Origin: Minisyncoccota bacterium
GTDB lineage: Bacteria; Patescibacteriota; Microgenomatia; UBA1400; PJMF01
Reading direction: 5' to 3'
Assembly: GCA_029881675.1 (NCBI GenBank)
Contig: JAOUMD010000004.1
Span: forward strand, 1-53,065
DNA: 53,065 bases
A program made the translations under genes and the position numbers. Positions 3,716 to 15,239 of this stretch are shown here, piece after piece. The first letter of the stretch is position 1. Each line of letters starts with the position of its first letter. The notes below the pieces were generated by a model. It ran no database searches. It was not told where the DNA came from and saw only the letters and a list, made by a program, of their open reading frames with translations.

Positions 3716-5095
3716 CTAAAGACTTTGGGCTAATTCTCTAAATTGATTGCCACGATCTTCGTAATTTTTAAACATATTGAAACTGGCACTGGCTGGGCTC
3801 ATCAGGACAATATCTCCAACTTGAGCTTGTTCTTTGCTAATGGTGACAGCTTCAGACATGTCATGAGCAGTCTTATTATTATTTACCAAAGGATGATTGC
3901 TATCTAACTTCTTGACTGAATTTAGAATCTTTTCTCCAGTGGTGGGGAAGAGAACTAGGTATTTGACGTTATGGTCAATGATTATTTGAGCTAATTTATC
4001 AAAGTTAGCTCCCTTTTCTGATCCACCAGTGATAAGAATAATAGGTTTGTTTTCAAATGCTTTGAGAGCGGCAATTGTAGCCTCAGGAGCACTTGCTGCA
4101 CTATCATTGTAGAATTTAACTTCATCTACTGTTTTGACCAGTTCAATGCGGTGAGGGACGCTTTTAAAGCTTGCAACTCCCTTACTAATTTCATCATCTG
4201 AGATATCTAAGATACGAGCAACTATTACAGCAGGAATTGTGTTGTATAAATTATGGACTCCAACTAGAGAAGAAGGGCTTTTTTTGATCAACTTAATTAT
4301 TTCTTGGCTTTCTTGATCGCTGTCTTTGAGTGAGAAGGGAAGGTGTTCTCCTTGGCTGAGCTTTGCCATTTTTGTGGCAGTATCTGAGTCTGAGTTGTAG
4401 ATAACGATGCTTGACTCAAGCTGAAATTTACAGATAGCAGTTTTTGCCTCAAAATATGTTTCAAAATTTGGGTAAAAATCAAGGTGATCCGAGGAAATAT
4501 CTTGAATAATTGCAATCTGAGGACTGGTAGTTAGCTCTGCTAACTGATGGCAAGACATCTCAAGAACATAAGTTCGTTCATTGGGTTGATCATTATTTTC
4601 TAAAAGTCTGAGCGGTGGTACACCGATATTACCTCCAAGAGCAACATCTACTTGGGCATGCTTTAGTACATGAAAAATTTGAGAAGTAGTAGTGCTTTTT
4701 CCTTTAGTACCAGTAATACCAATAGTGATGGGCTGATTTTCTAGTGACTCAATCAAATCAAAAAATAGTTGAGTATTGGATTGTAGTTTCTCTGGTGGAA
4801 CGTCTAGCTGATATTTTTCTTTTAGAACTATTTCTGAGATACCTGGAGTTTTAAAAACAAAGTCAAAAGCACTATCTTGTACTTTATTTGTCTCAATTTT
4901 TTTTACATTCTTATTATGTTCTAGTAGAGAAGACCAAGTGGGATCAAGTTCTTTAAGAGGTTTAGTATCTGTGACAAGAAGATTTATCTCTTTAAGATGG
5001 GAAAGCAAAAATTCAGCTGTGCTGAGTCCTTCTCTAGCCATTCCTAAAATAAGGATAGTTTTATTATTTAGTTTGGAAAGCTCTTTGGTGAACAT
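3716..5095 (-). CDS. murD: UDP-N-acetylmuramoyl-L-alanine:glutamate ligase (MurD, probably the L-Glu-using MurD2 type)
   Basis: A 459-aa Mur ligase. The N-terminal Rossmann domain carries ILILGMAREGLS, the ATP loop is GITGTKGKSTTT (residues 127-138), the central domain has EMSCHQL and SSDHLDFY, and the C-terminal domain has VPHRIE, FYNDSAASAPEAT and the MurD signature MSPASASFNMFKNYEDRG. The normal reaction adds D-Glu to UDP-MurNAc-L-Ala in the cytoplasm. Here the start codon lies inside the end of murL (32-bp overlap). In Xanthomonas the murL partner is MurD2, which attaches L-Glu before MurL inverts it, so this enzyme is inferred to take L-Glu. Specificity cannot be read from the motifs. 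Expression should be coupled to murL. Confidence 0.93.
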   Translation of the reverse strand: MFTKELSKLNNKTILILGMAREGLSTAEFLLSHLKEINLLVTDTKPLKELDPTWSSLLEHNKNVKKIETNKVQDSAFDFVFKTPGISEIVLKEKYQLDVPPEKLQSNTQLFFDLIESLENQPITIGITGTKGKSTTTSQIFHVLKHAQVDVALGGNIGVPPLRLLENNDQPNERTYVLEMSCHQLAELTTSPQIAIIQDISSDHLDFYPNFETYFEAKTAICKFQLESSIVIYNSDSDTATKMAKLSQGEHLPFSLKDSDQESQEIIKLIKKSPSSLVGVHNLYNTIPAVIVARILDISDDEISKGVASFKSVPHRIELVKTVDEVKFYNDSAASAPEATIAALKAFENKPIILITGGSEKGANFDKLAQIIIDHNVKYLVLFPTTGEKILNSVKKLDSNHPLVNNNKTAHDMSEAVTISKEQAQVGDIVLMSPASASFNMFKNYEDRGNQFRELAQSL

Positions 5096-12442: not shown

Positions 12443-12573
12443 TGTTCTTGTTAAATTATAGTTTTAAGCTTGTTTAATCAACCCTATGATCACCTATTTC
12501 TAATATTTATTTTCAAGTTCTTTAACCTCATTACTTAGTCTTTAAGTTAAAGTAATATTGATCTAAGTCTTTC

Positions 12574-12659
12574 TGGCGGAAGTGGAGGGATTCGAACCCA
12601 CGAAGCCCGAAGGCTCACGCTTTCCAAGCGTGTGCAATTGGCCACTATGCGACACTTCC
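12574..12659 (-). tRNA. tRNA-Ser (GGA anticodon)
   Basis: A class II tRNA. The acceptor GGAAGTG pairs with CACTTCC, the anticodon stem-loop CACGC-TTGGAAA-GCGTG gives anticodon GGA, the long variable arm is AGCC-TTCG-GGCT, and the T loop is TTCGAAT. The discriminator is G and the CCA tail is encoded (12576-12574). One T-stem pair is a T-T mismatch. It has its own extended -10 promoter at 12677-12685. Confidence 0.93.
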
Positions 12660-12676
12660 ATTGCTTTCAGACTTGA

Positions 12677-12685
12677 ATTATATCA
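12677..12685 (-). promoter_or_regulatory. Extended -10 promoter of tRNA-Ser
   Basis: TGATATAAT on the minus strand (12685-12677). The start near 12670 leaves 11 nt before the mature tRNA 5' end. Confidence 0.75.
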
Positions 12686-12760
12686 TCTATCATCTGTGTA
12701 GAATTACTGATATTTATTCCTACTCAAGCGGGGTATACATCCATTATGCATTGTGCATTA

Positions 12761-12769
12761 TGCTATACT
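12761..12769 (+). promoter_or_regulatory. Extended -10 promoter of the upstream leader
   Basis: TGCTATACT at 12761-12769 fits the extended -10 consensus. The start near 12776 is 4 nt before the ATG of a 25-codon leader ORF. Confidence 0.55.
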
Positions 12770-12779
12770 TATTTATTAA

Positions 12780-12857
12780 ATGAAAAATATTTATTTTACA
12801 CATCCAATGAAGAATACCTGTCTCCAAATTATTTGGGTCCAGCGGGGTGTGTCGTAA
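12780..12857 (+). CDS. Possible 25-aa leader peptide ahead of an attenuator
   Basis: An ATG almost at the predicted transcript start opens a 25-codon frame ending at TAA 12855-12857. Its sequence (starting MKNIYFTHPMKN and ending IIWVQRGVS) has no run of a single amino acid. The last codons overlap the first strand of the antiterminator (12842-12850), so a ribosome at the stop codon would mask it. An open frame of this length is not improbable by chance. The case rests on the fit of promoter, stop codon and hairpins. Confidence 0.45.
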   Translation: MKNIYFTHPMKNTCLQIIWVQRGVS

Positions 12858-12910
12858 CAAATATTTAAAAAAATAAAAACTACACCCCGCACAAAGAAGC
12901 GGGGTTTTTT
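12842..12910 (+). promoter_or_regulatory. Antiterminator/terminator pair (attenuator 1)
   Basis: Three strands compete. GCGGGGTGT (12842-12850) can pair with ACACCCCGC (12882-12890). Alternatively CCCCGC (12885-12890) pairs with GCGGGG (12899-12904), followed by TTTTTT (12905-12910), an intrinsic terminator. The two hairpins share a strand and exclude each other, as in ribosome-controlled attenuators. The 56-aa frame at 12939 is the first thing downstream. Confidence 0.65.
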
Positions 12911-12938
12911 AAATCCCTAACGGGGAAGAAAGGCAATC

Positions 12939-13109
12939 ATGGACGGTGTACAGCGAGTTCCATATAGCAGAAAAGCATTAGAAAACTTAGCAATGGCGCT
13001 TCGCGTCGATACTGCAGCTATTTGGTTCAATCCTACAACCAGCCGTGTTGATCTAAAAGAAACTAGGAGAGATGAAGATCTTGACGAGTTAATGGAAGCC
13101 GAGGAGTAA
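12939..13109 (+). CDS. Small hypothetical 56-aa protein
   Basis: A frame from ATG 12939 to TAA 13107-13109, too short for most gene finders. It begins MDGVQRVPYSRKALENLAMA and ends in an acidic tail (DEDLDELMEAEE). GAAGAAAGG precedes the start by about 5 nt. It sits between two attenuator-like structures, downstream of the first terminator and upstream of the thrS leader promoter. Composition, with a basic N-terminus and acidic C-terminus, looks protein-like. I do not recognise a family. It may be the gene controlled by the first attenuator. Confidence 0.5.
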   Translation: MDGVQRVPYSRKALENLAMALRVDTAAIWFNPTTSRVDLKETRRDEDLDELMEAEE

Positions 13110-13130
13110 ATAATTACTCTCGAGTAGACA

Positions 13131-13139
13131 TGATATAAT
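13131..13139 (+). promoter_or_regulatory. Extended -10 promoter of the thrS leader
   Basis: TGATATAAT at 13131-13139 is a perfect extended -10. The start near 13146 is one base from the ATG of the Thr leader peptide at 13147, so the leader is translated leaderlessly. Confidence 0.8.
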
Positions 13140-13146
13140 ATTCTCA

Positions 13147-13203
13147 ATGTTATTGAAGAAGTTTCTTTTACCAACCACTACCACCACAACGATGAAGCGT
13201 TAG
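13147..13203 (+). CDS. Threonine leader peptide of thrS
   Basis: An 18-codon frame, ATG 13147 to TAG 13201-13203, encoding MLLKKFLLPTTTTTTMKR. Six consecutive Thr codons (ACC ACT ACC ACC ACA ACG, 13174-13191) use all four Thr codons, as expected for sensing the whole threonyl-tRNA pool. The stop codon's last base is also the first base of the antiterminator strand at 13203. The ATG lies directly at the predicted transcript start. The next real gene downstream is threonyl-tRNA synthetase. Six Thr in a row by chance at this place is extremely unlikely, and thr-operon leader peptides of enteric bacteria are an established analogue. It most likely acts only by being translated, not as a functional peptide. 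Confidence 0.85.
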   Translation: MLLKKFLLPTTTTTTMKR

Positions 13204-13260
13204 GGAGGTTTAGTGTTTAAAAGAAAACGAGACCTCCCGAAAGGGGGGTCTTTTAGTTTT
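13203..13260 (+). promoter_or_regulatory. Thr attenuator: antiterminator and terminator hairpins of thrS
   Basis: Strand 2 (GACCTCCC, 13231-13238) can pair over 8 bp with strand 1 (GGGAGGTT, 13203-13210) or over 8 bp with strand 3 (GGGGGGTC, 13243-13250). Pairing 2-3 closes a GAAA loop and precedes TTTTAGTTTT, an intrinsic terminator. A ribosome halted at any of the six Thr codons leaves strand 1 free, so the antiterminator forms and thrS is read. A ribosome reaching the stop codon covers strand 1, so the terminator forms. The 200 nt from here to thrS show only a weak TATAGA (13431-13436) that could be a second promoter. Confidence 0.85.
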
Positions 13261-13466
13261 GGAGACCTTTTGGGCGCAAAAGTTAAAACACACGTGTAAT
13301 AAAACATTAATAAAAAGGAATAAATATAGTTTTAGAGTACAGAGTAGCGTCAATATAAAATGTTTAAAAACTATTCGGGTTTGGTTAAAATTCGGTTACA
13401 GAATAGGGCTTTTATAGGTTATGATTATTTTATAGAAAAGTACCTAAGAATATTAAGAAAAAAGTT

Positions 13467-15239
13467 ATGAAAAAAGATAATAAAGAGTATCTATTTAAAT
13501 TGCGTCATTCAGCAGAGCATGTCTTGACTCAGGCAATGGTTAATCTCTATGGAAGAGATAAGATTATTATGGCCATGGGTCCTGCTACAGAAGAAGGGTT
13601 CTATTTTGATTTTGAGACAAAAGATATCAAGGTATCAGAAGAAAATTTTTCCAAGATTGAAAAAGAAATGTATAAGATCGTTAATAAAGGTTTTGATATT
13701 ACTCGTCATGAGATTGAGATTAGTGATGCTAGAGAATTATTTAAAGATAATTCATATAAGCAAGAATGGCTTGATGAGATTGAAGCAGCAGGAGAGAAGG
13801 CAACTGTTTATTGGACAGGAGAGCCTAATGCTGAGGGTAGTTTTGTAGATCTTTGTAAGGGTCCTCATATTGATAATACAAAAGAAATTGGAGCTATTAA
13901 GTTACTTAGTGTTGCTGGGGCATATTGGCGTGGTGATGAGAAAAACCAGATGTTAACTCGTATTTACGGGACTGCATTTGAAAGTAGAGAAGAGCTTAAG
14001 GCATATCTTCATATGCTTGAAGAAGCCAAGAAAAGAGATCATAAGAAACTTGGTAAAGAGTTAGACCTCTTTACTTTCTCTAACTTAGTTGGAGCAGGCT
14101 TACCGCTTTGGACTCCAAAAGGCACTCTAATTCGTAATATTCTGGAAGACTATGTCTGGCAACTTCGTAGTGCCAAAGGTTACCAAAAAGTCACTATTCC
14201 TCATATTACAAAAAAGGATTTATATGAGACTAGTGGCCATTGGGCAAAGTATGAGGATGATTTATTTAAGATTGAGACAAGAGAGGGACACACATTTGCT
14301 ATGAAGCCAATGAACTGTCCTCATCATACTCAGATTTATGATCACGTCCCAAGATCCTACAAAGATTTACCTCAAAGATATAGTGAGACAACTATGGTTT
14401 ACCGTGATGAACAATCTGGTGAGTTAAGTGGTCTTTCTCGTGTCAGATGTATTACCCAAGATGATGCCCATGTCTTTTGTAGAGAGTCACAACTTGAAGA
14501 TGAGATGTTAGCTATCTGGGATATTATTGAGACTTTTTATAAAGATACAGGTTTCCCTAAACTAGAAGTGAGATTATCCCTTCATGATCCAGAGAAGATG
14601 GAGAATTATCTTGGAGAAGAAGAAGATTGGCAACGTTGGGAAGATGGTTTAAGAAATCTAGCTAAAAAGCGTGGAGTAGAGTTTGTCGAACAAAAAGGCG
14701 AGGCAGCTTTCTATGGTCCTAAGATTGACTTCATTGCATATGACTCAATTGGTCGTGAGTGGCAAGTTGCTACAATTCAGGCTGATCGTAACATGCCAAA
14801 AAGCTTTGATTTAAACTGTGCCAATGAAGAAAATGAAGTAGAAAGAATAGTCATGGTCCATGCTGCAATCATGGGTTCAATAGAAAGATTTATGTCTATT
14901 CTAATTGAGCACCATGCAGGAGCATTCCCAGTTTGGATATCTCCAGTACAGGCAGTTGTTCTCCCTATCTCAGATAGACATTTAGAGTATGCAAAAGAAG
15001 TAGCAGCACAAGCATTAGAGTTAGGTCTTCGTGTTGAAGTAGTAGATACTAATGAGAGTCTTTCTAAAAAGATTAGAAATGCTCAAAAAGGCAAGATTCC
15101 ATATTCATTAGTAGTTGGTGACGAAGAAGTAGAGAAGAAGACAGTAGCTGTGCGTAGAAGAGGTGAGAGAGAACAAGAAGTGGTCTCTGTAGATGAGTTC
15201 TTGGCTAAGTTAGTTAAACAAGATCAGGATAAATCTTAA
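13467..15239 (+). CDS. thrS: Threonine--tRNA ligase (ThrRS), lacking the TGS domain
   Basis: A 590-aa class II aminoacyl-tRNA synthetase that charges tRNA-Thr in the cytoplasm. The usual N-terminal TGS domain (about 60 residues) is absent; the protein opens directly at the editing domain, with HSAEH at 14-18 and CKGPH at 130-134. The catalytic domain has MNCPHH (zinc ligand C284), VYRDEQSG (motif 2), QDDAH (H335) and SIERFMSILIEHHAG (motif 3, zinc ligand H482 or H483). The C-terminal anticodon-binding domain holds GKIPYSLVVGDEE and TVAVRRRGE. It has no Shine-Dalgarno. It lies behind the Thr leader attenuator, so its synthesis should rise when threonyl-tRNA is scarce. It ends at a hairpin shared with the convergent STAS gene. 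Confidence 0.97.
   Translation: MKKDNKEYLFKLRHSAEHVLTQAMVNLYGRDKIIMAMGPATEEGFYFDFETKDIKVSEENFSKIEKEMYKIVNKGFDITRHEIEISDARELFKDNSYKQEWLDEIEAAGEKATVYWTGEPNAEGSFVDLCKGPHIDNTKEIGAIKLLSVAGAYWRGDEKNQMLTRIYGTAFESREELKAYLHMLEEAKKRDHKKLGKELDLFTFSNLVGAGLPLWTPKGTLIRNILEDYVWQLRSAKGYQKVTIPHITKKDLYETSGHWAKYEDDLFKIETREGHTFAMKPMNCPHHTQIYDHVPRSYKDLPQRYSETTMVYRDEQSGELSGLSRVRCITQDDAHVFCRESQLEDEMLAIWDIIETFYKDTGFPKLEVRLSLHDPEKMENYLGEEEDWQRWEDGLRNLAKKRGVEFVEQKGEAAFYGPKIDFIAYDSIGREWQVATIQADRNMPKSFDLNCANEENEVERIVMVHAAIMGSIERFMSILIEHHAGAFPVWISPVQAVVLPISDRHLEYAKEVAAQALELGLRVEVVDTNESLSKKIRNAQKGKIPYSLVVGDEEVEKKTVAVRRRGEREQEVVSVDEFLAKLVKQDQDKS

Follow-up and report, generated by a model that had tools for sequence, protein, structure and literature searches.

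The window, meaning the whole 53,065-nt stretch of DNA analyzed here, is contig 23 of a fragmented genome assembly of 1.08 Mb in 44 contigs. The genome nearest to this host is a Patescibacteria MAG (G001). Upstream of the gene encoding threonyl-tRNA synthetase (thrS), the window holds a promoter element, a short Thr-rich open reading frame (ORF) and two alternative hairpins, which are listed below.

13131–13139, + strand: extended −10 element TGATATAAT, 7 nt upstream of the leader start codon, at a position conserved in relatives
13147–13203, + strand: leader ORF MLLKKFLLPTTTTTTMKR with its stop, 18 codons, predicted to be leaderless; Thr-rich ORFs lie at the same place in relatives
13174–13191, + strand: run of six Thr codons (ACC ACT ACC ACC ACA ACG), putative sensor, read directly
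13203–13211, + strand: segment 2 GGGAGGTTT, 5′ strand of the antiterminator, beginning with the final base of the leader TAG
13229–13238, + strand: segment 3 GAGACCTCCC, C-rich shared strand, serving as 3′ strand of the antiterminator and 5′ strand of the terminator
13243–13252, + strand: segment 4 GGGGGGTCTT, 3′ strand of the terminator, called by scan; the helix covaries in 41 sequences
13250–13259, + strand: U-rich tract CTTTTAGTTT, end of the terminator
13467–15239, + strand: thrS, threonine--tRNA ligase of 590 aa (NCBIfam TIGR00418, E 2.7e-199)

Direct reading of 13131–13260 showed the elements to be as described in the earlier note, which had reported the extended −10, an 18-codon leader whose six consecutive Thr codons represent all four codons for this amino acid, an antiterminator strand that overlaps the leader stop codon by its final base (13203), and two alternative 8-bp pairings of the same strand. 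The leader ATG lies at 13147–13149 and the stop codon TAG at 13201–13203. The antiterminator is formed by 13203–13210 (GGGAGGTT) and 13231–13238 (GACCTCCC), with 8 bp and 9 possible. The terminator is formed by 13231–13238 and 13243–13250, reaches 10 pairs across 13229–13252, and is followed by TTAGTTTT; it was also called independently by a consensus terminator scan. Its GAAA loop (13239–13242) is as had been claimed, but the T run said to follow is not uninterrupted, since the tract is broken (TCTTTTAGTTTT). Part of the Thr-run region has a possible pairing partner in the segment that follows the leader stop. Runs of six ACN triplets occur at four distinct places in the host genome, and only the one at 13174–13191 is placed as a thrS leader. 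The locus thus has a short leader ORF in which several codons for the regulated amino acid stand in a row, a downstream gene (thrS, starting 263 nt past the leader stop) that belongs to the metabolism of that amino acid, and a mutually exclusive antiterminator and intrinsic terminator with a common strand.

The candidate promoter for leader transcription is an extended −10 with conserved spacing. A −10 hexamer, scored when at least 5 of 6 bases matched and when it ended about 5–10 nt before the leader start codon, was found in 28 of 43 leaders, with a spacing peak at 7–8 nt. Control rates were 2.4% at positions 40–200 nt upstream and 3.9% at other ATG or GTG codons. Judged from the −10, the transcript probably starts at the leader start codon or no more than a few bases away from it, in the window at about 13146–13147. 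The leaderless start that had been proposed earlier is therefore supported by the −10 spacing in most relatives, and the coordinate itself is an estimate from the −10. Boxes resembling a −10 were also found in the interval from the terminator to thrS, at 35 of 41 loci where shuffling predicts 25.5; one example is TATGAT, some 41 nt ahead of thrS. The attenuator may consequently be bypassed for part of thrS expression, and a second, basal promoter that is independent of it may lie downstream of the terminator. Within the terminator-to-thrS interval of the window, 13340–13425 contains blocks conserved with the sister species (GCGTCAAT, AAATTCGGTTA and GTTATGATT), and a second promoter might reside in them.

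The leader is conserved in form across relatives. Their thrS genes are preceded by Thr-rich leaders of about 12–25 codons with diverged sequences (e.g., MLRQKFFSATTTTQLC, MKKFLNLITTTTTNP, MLFLFNSTTTTATTR, VKSVQIVTTTTTTTTK and MLNQIILTTTTTTTTNP), each with a G-rich segment at or just past the stop codon and then a terminator. A Thr-rich leader and hairpin upstream of thrS persist down to 40–50% ThrS identity, the Thr run stays in frame while its codons vary, and the Thr run, the antiterminator and the pre-leader −10 are conserved jointly where the upstream gene differs. Homologs lacking the Thr run or both hairpins had been named in advance as evidence against attenuation; the relatives were checked and keep both. 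A covariance model built from 19 thrS leaders (R1) had hits in 73 of the order's 88 genomes at E ≤ 0.01 and in 35 of the family's 42 at E ≤ 1e-4, with fewer hits outside the family. The 30 best R1 hits that were fetched, among them 14 from outside the training set, all sit a short way upstream of thrS. A phylum-wide draw gave R1 hits in 21 of 380 genomes at E ≤ 1e-4, and the new hits precede thrS (G281, G324 and G117), other genes of Thr metabolism, or unrelated genes. Two R1 hits (G000:C42 and G001:C1:152153) were rejected as leaders; they resemble plain terminators that end a long gene.

Some Thr leaders depart from this arrangement. An SDR-type dehydrogenase gene (L164, G011:C8) and an MFS transporter gene (L165, G013:C123) are each preceded by a Thr-containing leader and a terminator, and Thr leaders are therefore not confined to thrS. 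At three thrS loci (L043, L046 and L048, of which L046 is labelled as an alphaproteobacterium), the Thr run is followed by a GC hairpin fused to the leader end, and no separate antiterminator was found at these loci. They possibly represent a different, more compact design.

The influence of the ribosome on RNA structure was computed by masked folding, an equilibrium approximation of a kinetic process, in which a ribosome footprint was set on each of the Thr codons in turn or on the stop codon and the RNA, truncated at the terminator loop, was then folded. Across 20 leaders, segment 3 paired upstream with a mean probability of 0.87 for a ribosome on Thr codons and of 0.11 for a ribosome at the stop, and all 20 switched in the predicted direction; the evidence that ribosome position selects the structure is thus computational. 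The values in the window were 0.91 stalled, 0.14 at the stop and 0.90 without a ribosome, so that a ribosome finishing the leader is what permits the terminator, in agreement with the masking of the antiterminator strand proposed in the earlier note. When the spacer from the stop to segment 3 was shuffled, the mean difference was 0.18 rather than the 0.79 observed. Most of the further leaders found by R1 outside the training set switch alike, with a few weak cases. Without a ribosome, the terminator is also favored in 11 of the 20 leaders, since segment 2 is then taken up by pairing with the leader region. The truncated RNA of the window, unlike these, then favors the antiterminator, which points to little default termination. 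In the full-length RNA of the window, the terminator is preferred in all states (0.90 even with a stalled ribosome), and the switch must thus be kinetic, the antiterminator forming before segment 4 is made.

Covariation, which had been suggested as a check, was found in the terminator helix. Two-sided changes occur in 6 of its 7 pairs among 41 model-aligned leaders, with 34 two-sided cells against 13.1 in shuffles; the alignment was fitted to this helix and somewhat favors its signal, which disappears when the partners are slid by 1–3 columns. The antiterminator was tabulated by position from the terminator loop, a rough count, because the MAFFT alignment of segment 2 is unreliable. Its pairs vary in type (GC, AU, CG and UA) at the same positions. 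Recurrence before thrS, covariation and loss of the switch on spacer shuffling together argue that these elements are not a product of chance.

Transcription of thrS very probably depends on how much charged tRNA-Thr is available, through a ribosome-mediated transcription attenuator. The observed or computed parts of this model are the sequence elements and their conservation, the terminator covariation and the exclusive pairing under masked folding; from these we infer where the transcript starts, that the leader is translated, that the ribosome stalls and transcription terminates, and which way the response runs. Transcription would begin at or beside the leader ATG, and the leader would be translated from a leaderless or nearly leaderless mRNA. 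With ample Thr-tRNA, the ribosome would reach the UAG at 13201–13203 and cover segment 2 (13203–13211), segments 3 and 4 would form the terminator, and RNA polymerase would stop near 13255. With scarce Thr-tRNA, the ribosome would stall within the six-Thr run and leave segment 2 free to pair with segment 3 before segment 4 is synthesized. No terminator would then form and thrS would be transcribed.

The same sequence could be read as the ordinary intrinsic terminator of the small gene at 12940–13109 together with a chance Thr-rich ORF, the thrS promoter lying downstream of 13260. A strong terminator does follow a short gene here, and −10-like boxes are present between it and thrS. Such a terminator does not account for a Thr run, an antiterminator and a −10 that are kept together where the upstream gene differs, for a switch that is lost on spacer shuffling, or for cognate leaders that also precede hisS, pheS, trpS and gatC, and we consider this explanation very unlikely. 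The polycysteine leaders of mycobacteria, which are leaderless, are among the leader ORFs in other bacteria that act by translational coupling or by sensing slow translation in general. With this precedent, and with the three loci (L043, L046 and L048) whose hairpin is fused to the Thr run and that lack a separate antiterminator, the thrS leader could be thought to act mainly in such a way rather than by Thr-specific attenuation. The distance from the leader stop to thrS in the window is too long for coupling, however, the structure there terminates in a U-rich intrinsic terminator, and the leader amino acid fits the downstream gene in the clear cases. There is little chance that coupling or general slow-translation sensing is the main mode of action.

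E. coli ThrRS binds its own mRNA, and a ThrRS-binding operator or a tRNA-binding T-box riboswitch might control thrS in place of leader translation. T-box-like elements do occur on thrS in some members of the order and on ileS and serS in the host genome itself. Within the leader of the window, however, no Rfam family reached its gathering score, and the best sub-threshold match was Phe_leader (29.2 bits, E 0.016), itself a leader-peptide family. At E ≤ 10, the T-box model (RF00230) did not match the window leader, and even this threshold gave no Thr_leader (RF00506) match in 12500–13600. The preservation of the Thr-run frame despite changing codons also speaks against this reading, and direct binding of tRNA or ThrRS is extremely improbable as the mechanism.

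Leaders consistent with Thr-specific attenuation of thrS have counterparts for other amino acids. Among the places found by searches and fetched, the same genome or its near relatives have cognate-amino-acid leaders of like layout on hisS (MNTNITAQLVAHHNSHI, MNKTVLLLTKVAHHTHS and MQQLQMCSVAHHTLS, with His), pheS (MTGKLALTSFFFFSHC and MTIKKNSANSSFFSHC, with Phe), trpS or trpB (MKLNTQLTTAWWNSLK and MTQLQLTTKAWWNSLI, with Trp, before trpB in G000 and trpS in G001) and gatC (VKLTLLINQQNQQAN and MFSFVKSNQQNQQAN, with Gln and Asn). Another leader (MLINIALYQNNHHHHAISEVI) precedes a gene resembling histidine racemases, whose matches to NCBIfam NF052224 and NF033599 are both below cut-off on a 110-residue piece. 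Masked folding gave the same kind of switch for these, the weakest being the G001 gatC leader. More distant genomes have Thr leaders before aspartokinase and SerB-like genes and a Lys leader before a class I lysS.

Several of these leaders have features of their own. The leader before the CntK/HisR-like racemase gene (L175, G000:C1:857-956) has four consecutive His codons. The Trp leaders of the two sister species (L177, G000:C13:17402-17467; L178, G001:C20:8877-8943) are near-identical (LTT.AWWNSL) and precede trpB in one and trpS in the other, and the leader thus seems to have switched its target gene. The Gln/Asn-rich gatC leader was found in both species of the genus, ending in NQQNQQAN before the stop and lying with its terminator directly upstream of gatC (L183, G000:C31:49519-49600; L190, G001:C15:16316-16398). 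The GatC amidotransferase makes Gln-tRNA and Asn-tRNA indirectly, and it is possible that this leader is an attenuator sensing the Gln-tRNA or Asn-tRNA that GatCAB itself makes. Aromatic-rich leaders (YYMWLF and IWYFTF) with terminators were seen before an ArsC/low-molecular-weight phosphatase-like gene (L195, G000:C10:19029; L182, G001:C2:29892), and masked folding gave no clear amino-acid switch for them. Tandem leader–terminator units (MLHSVLSTNLYFMFLK and MKIKINNFYTSMFNLMYLRGGCYL; L179/L157, G000:C22, about 4000–4233) precede a 185-aa gene and then an aminotransferase-like gene. The window has a second attenuator-like element at 12763–12912, with an extended −10 (TGcTATACT), an ORF with one Trp codon (MKNIYFTHPMKNTCLQIIWVQRGVS) and antiterminator and terminator strands GCGGGGTGT, ACACCCCGC and GCGGGGT. 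No clean amino-acid reading was obtained by masked folding for this leader at 12780. The 56-aa gene downstream of it (12940–13109) had no NCBIfam match; small genes like it also lie upstream of thrS at L002, L003 and L005.

T-box-like elements take the place of leader peptides at ileS and serS in the host genome and its near relatives, and some thrS genes of the order carry them rather than Thr leaders. No T-box reached the Rfam gathering score at these loci and a relaxed threshold gave two weak hits, so that only the term T-box-like is used. It seems reasonably likely that Patescibacteria of this group have a regulon of leaderless or nearly leaderless attenuators, each of which reads one charged tRNA and controls the gene for its supply, including the Gln/Asn leader of gatC and the His leader of the racemase-like gene, and that these are interchangeable in evolution with T-box-like elements.

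Several known systems resemble the one proposed here. The thr operon leader of enterobacteria (RF00506) also has a run of Thr codons and a competing antiterminator and terminator. It controls thrABC biosynthesis and also senses Ile, whereas the window leader lies on thrS and gave no RF00506 match. T-boxes (RF00230) likewise use charged-tRNA supply to control synthetase genes through termination, but they bind the tRNA directly and have no leader ORF. Among synthetase genes, pheST of E. coli has an attenuator that was studied by experiment, and attenuators have been predicted for leuS and trpS in Streptomyces (PMC1262725) and, as His leaders, for hisS paralogs of Bacillus (PMC2965389). In these cases, as proposed for the window, a cognate leader and the ribosome that reads it attenuate the gene of an aminoacyl-tRNA synthetase; the amino acids and phyla are different. 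In Sinorhizobium meliloti trpL, the leader ATG is the 5′ end of the transcript within a transcription attenuator (PMC7298713), an arrangement predicted for the window as well; trpL differs in sensing Trp, in its biosynthetic target trpE(G) and in belonging to the Alphaproteobacteria. The earlier note knew of no described case on thrS, and this view has to be revised. In Streptomyces lividans TK24, a candidate leaderless thrL was reported upstream of thrS, with proposed Thr-dependent attenuation (PMC8079986, Table 4). The two loci are alike in having a leader ORF before thrS, leaderless transcription and proposed Thr attenuation. The S. lividans thrL has only two Thr codons (MKRVRPFLETTPGFVPAR) and one hairpin without a U-rich tract or clear terminator, whereas in the window, which comes from an unrelated phylum, the Thr codons number six and antiterminator and terminator are both present in full. 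A comparative survey of synthetase attenuators (Lopatovskaya et al., 2010, Mol Biol 44:128; cited in PMC4833913) may include further thrS cases. Full-text literature searches of open-licence papers gave no leader-peptide attenuator described for Patescibacteria.

Control of synthetase genes by leader peptides, a candidate leaderless thrL–thrS attenuator and leaderless attenuator leaders are thus already known. The new points are that the host belongs to the Patescibacteria, that the comparative evidence is strong and that a broad set of amino-acid genes is concerned. Gene regulation in Patescibacteria is almost unstudied, and leaders of this kind would offer a simple readout, from sequence alone, of which charged tRNA controls a gene. 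If the model is true, leader ORFs would begin at or near the 5′ end of the transcript, which would imply efficient leaderless initiation, and in a single order leader peptides and T-box-like elements would replace one another in the regulation of thrS. Reduced, largely auxotrophic cells would then sense their amino-acid supply via coupled transcription and translation.
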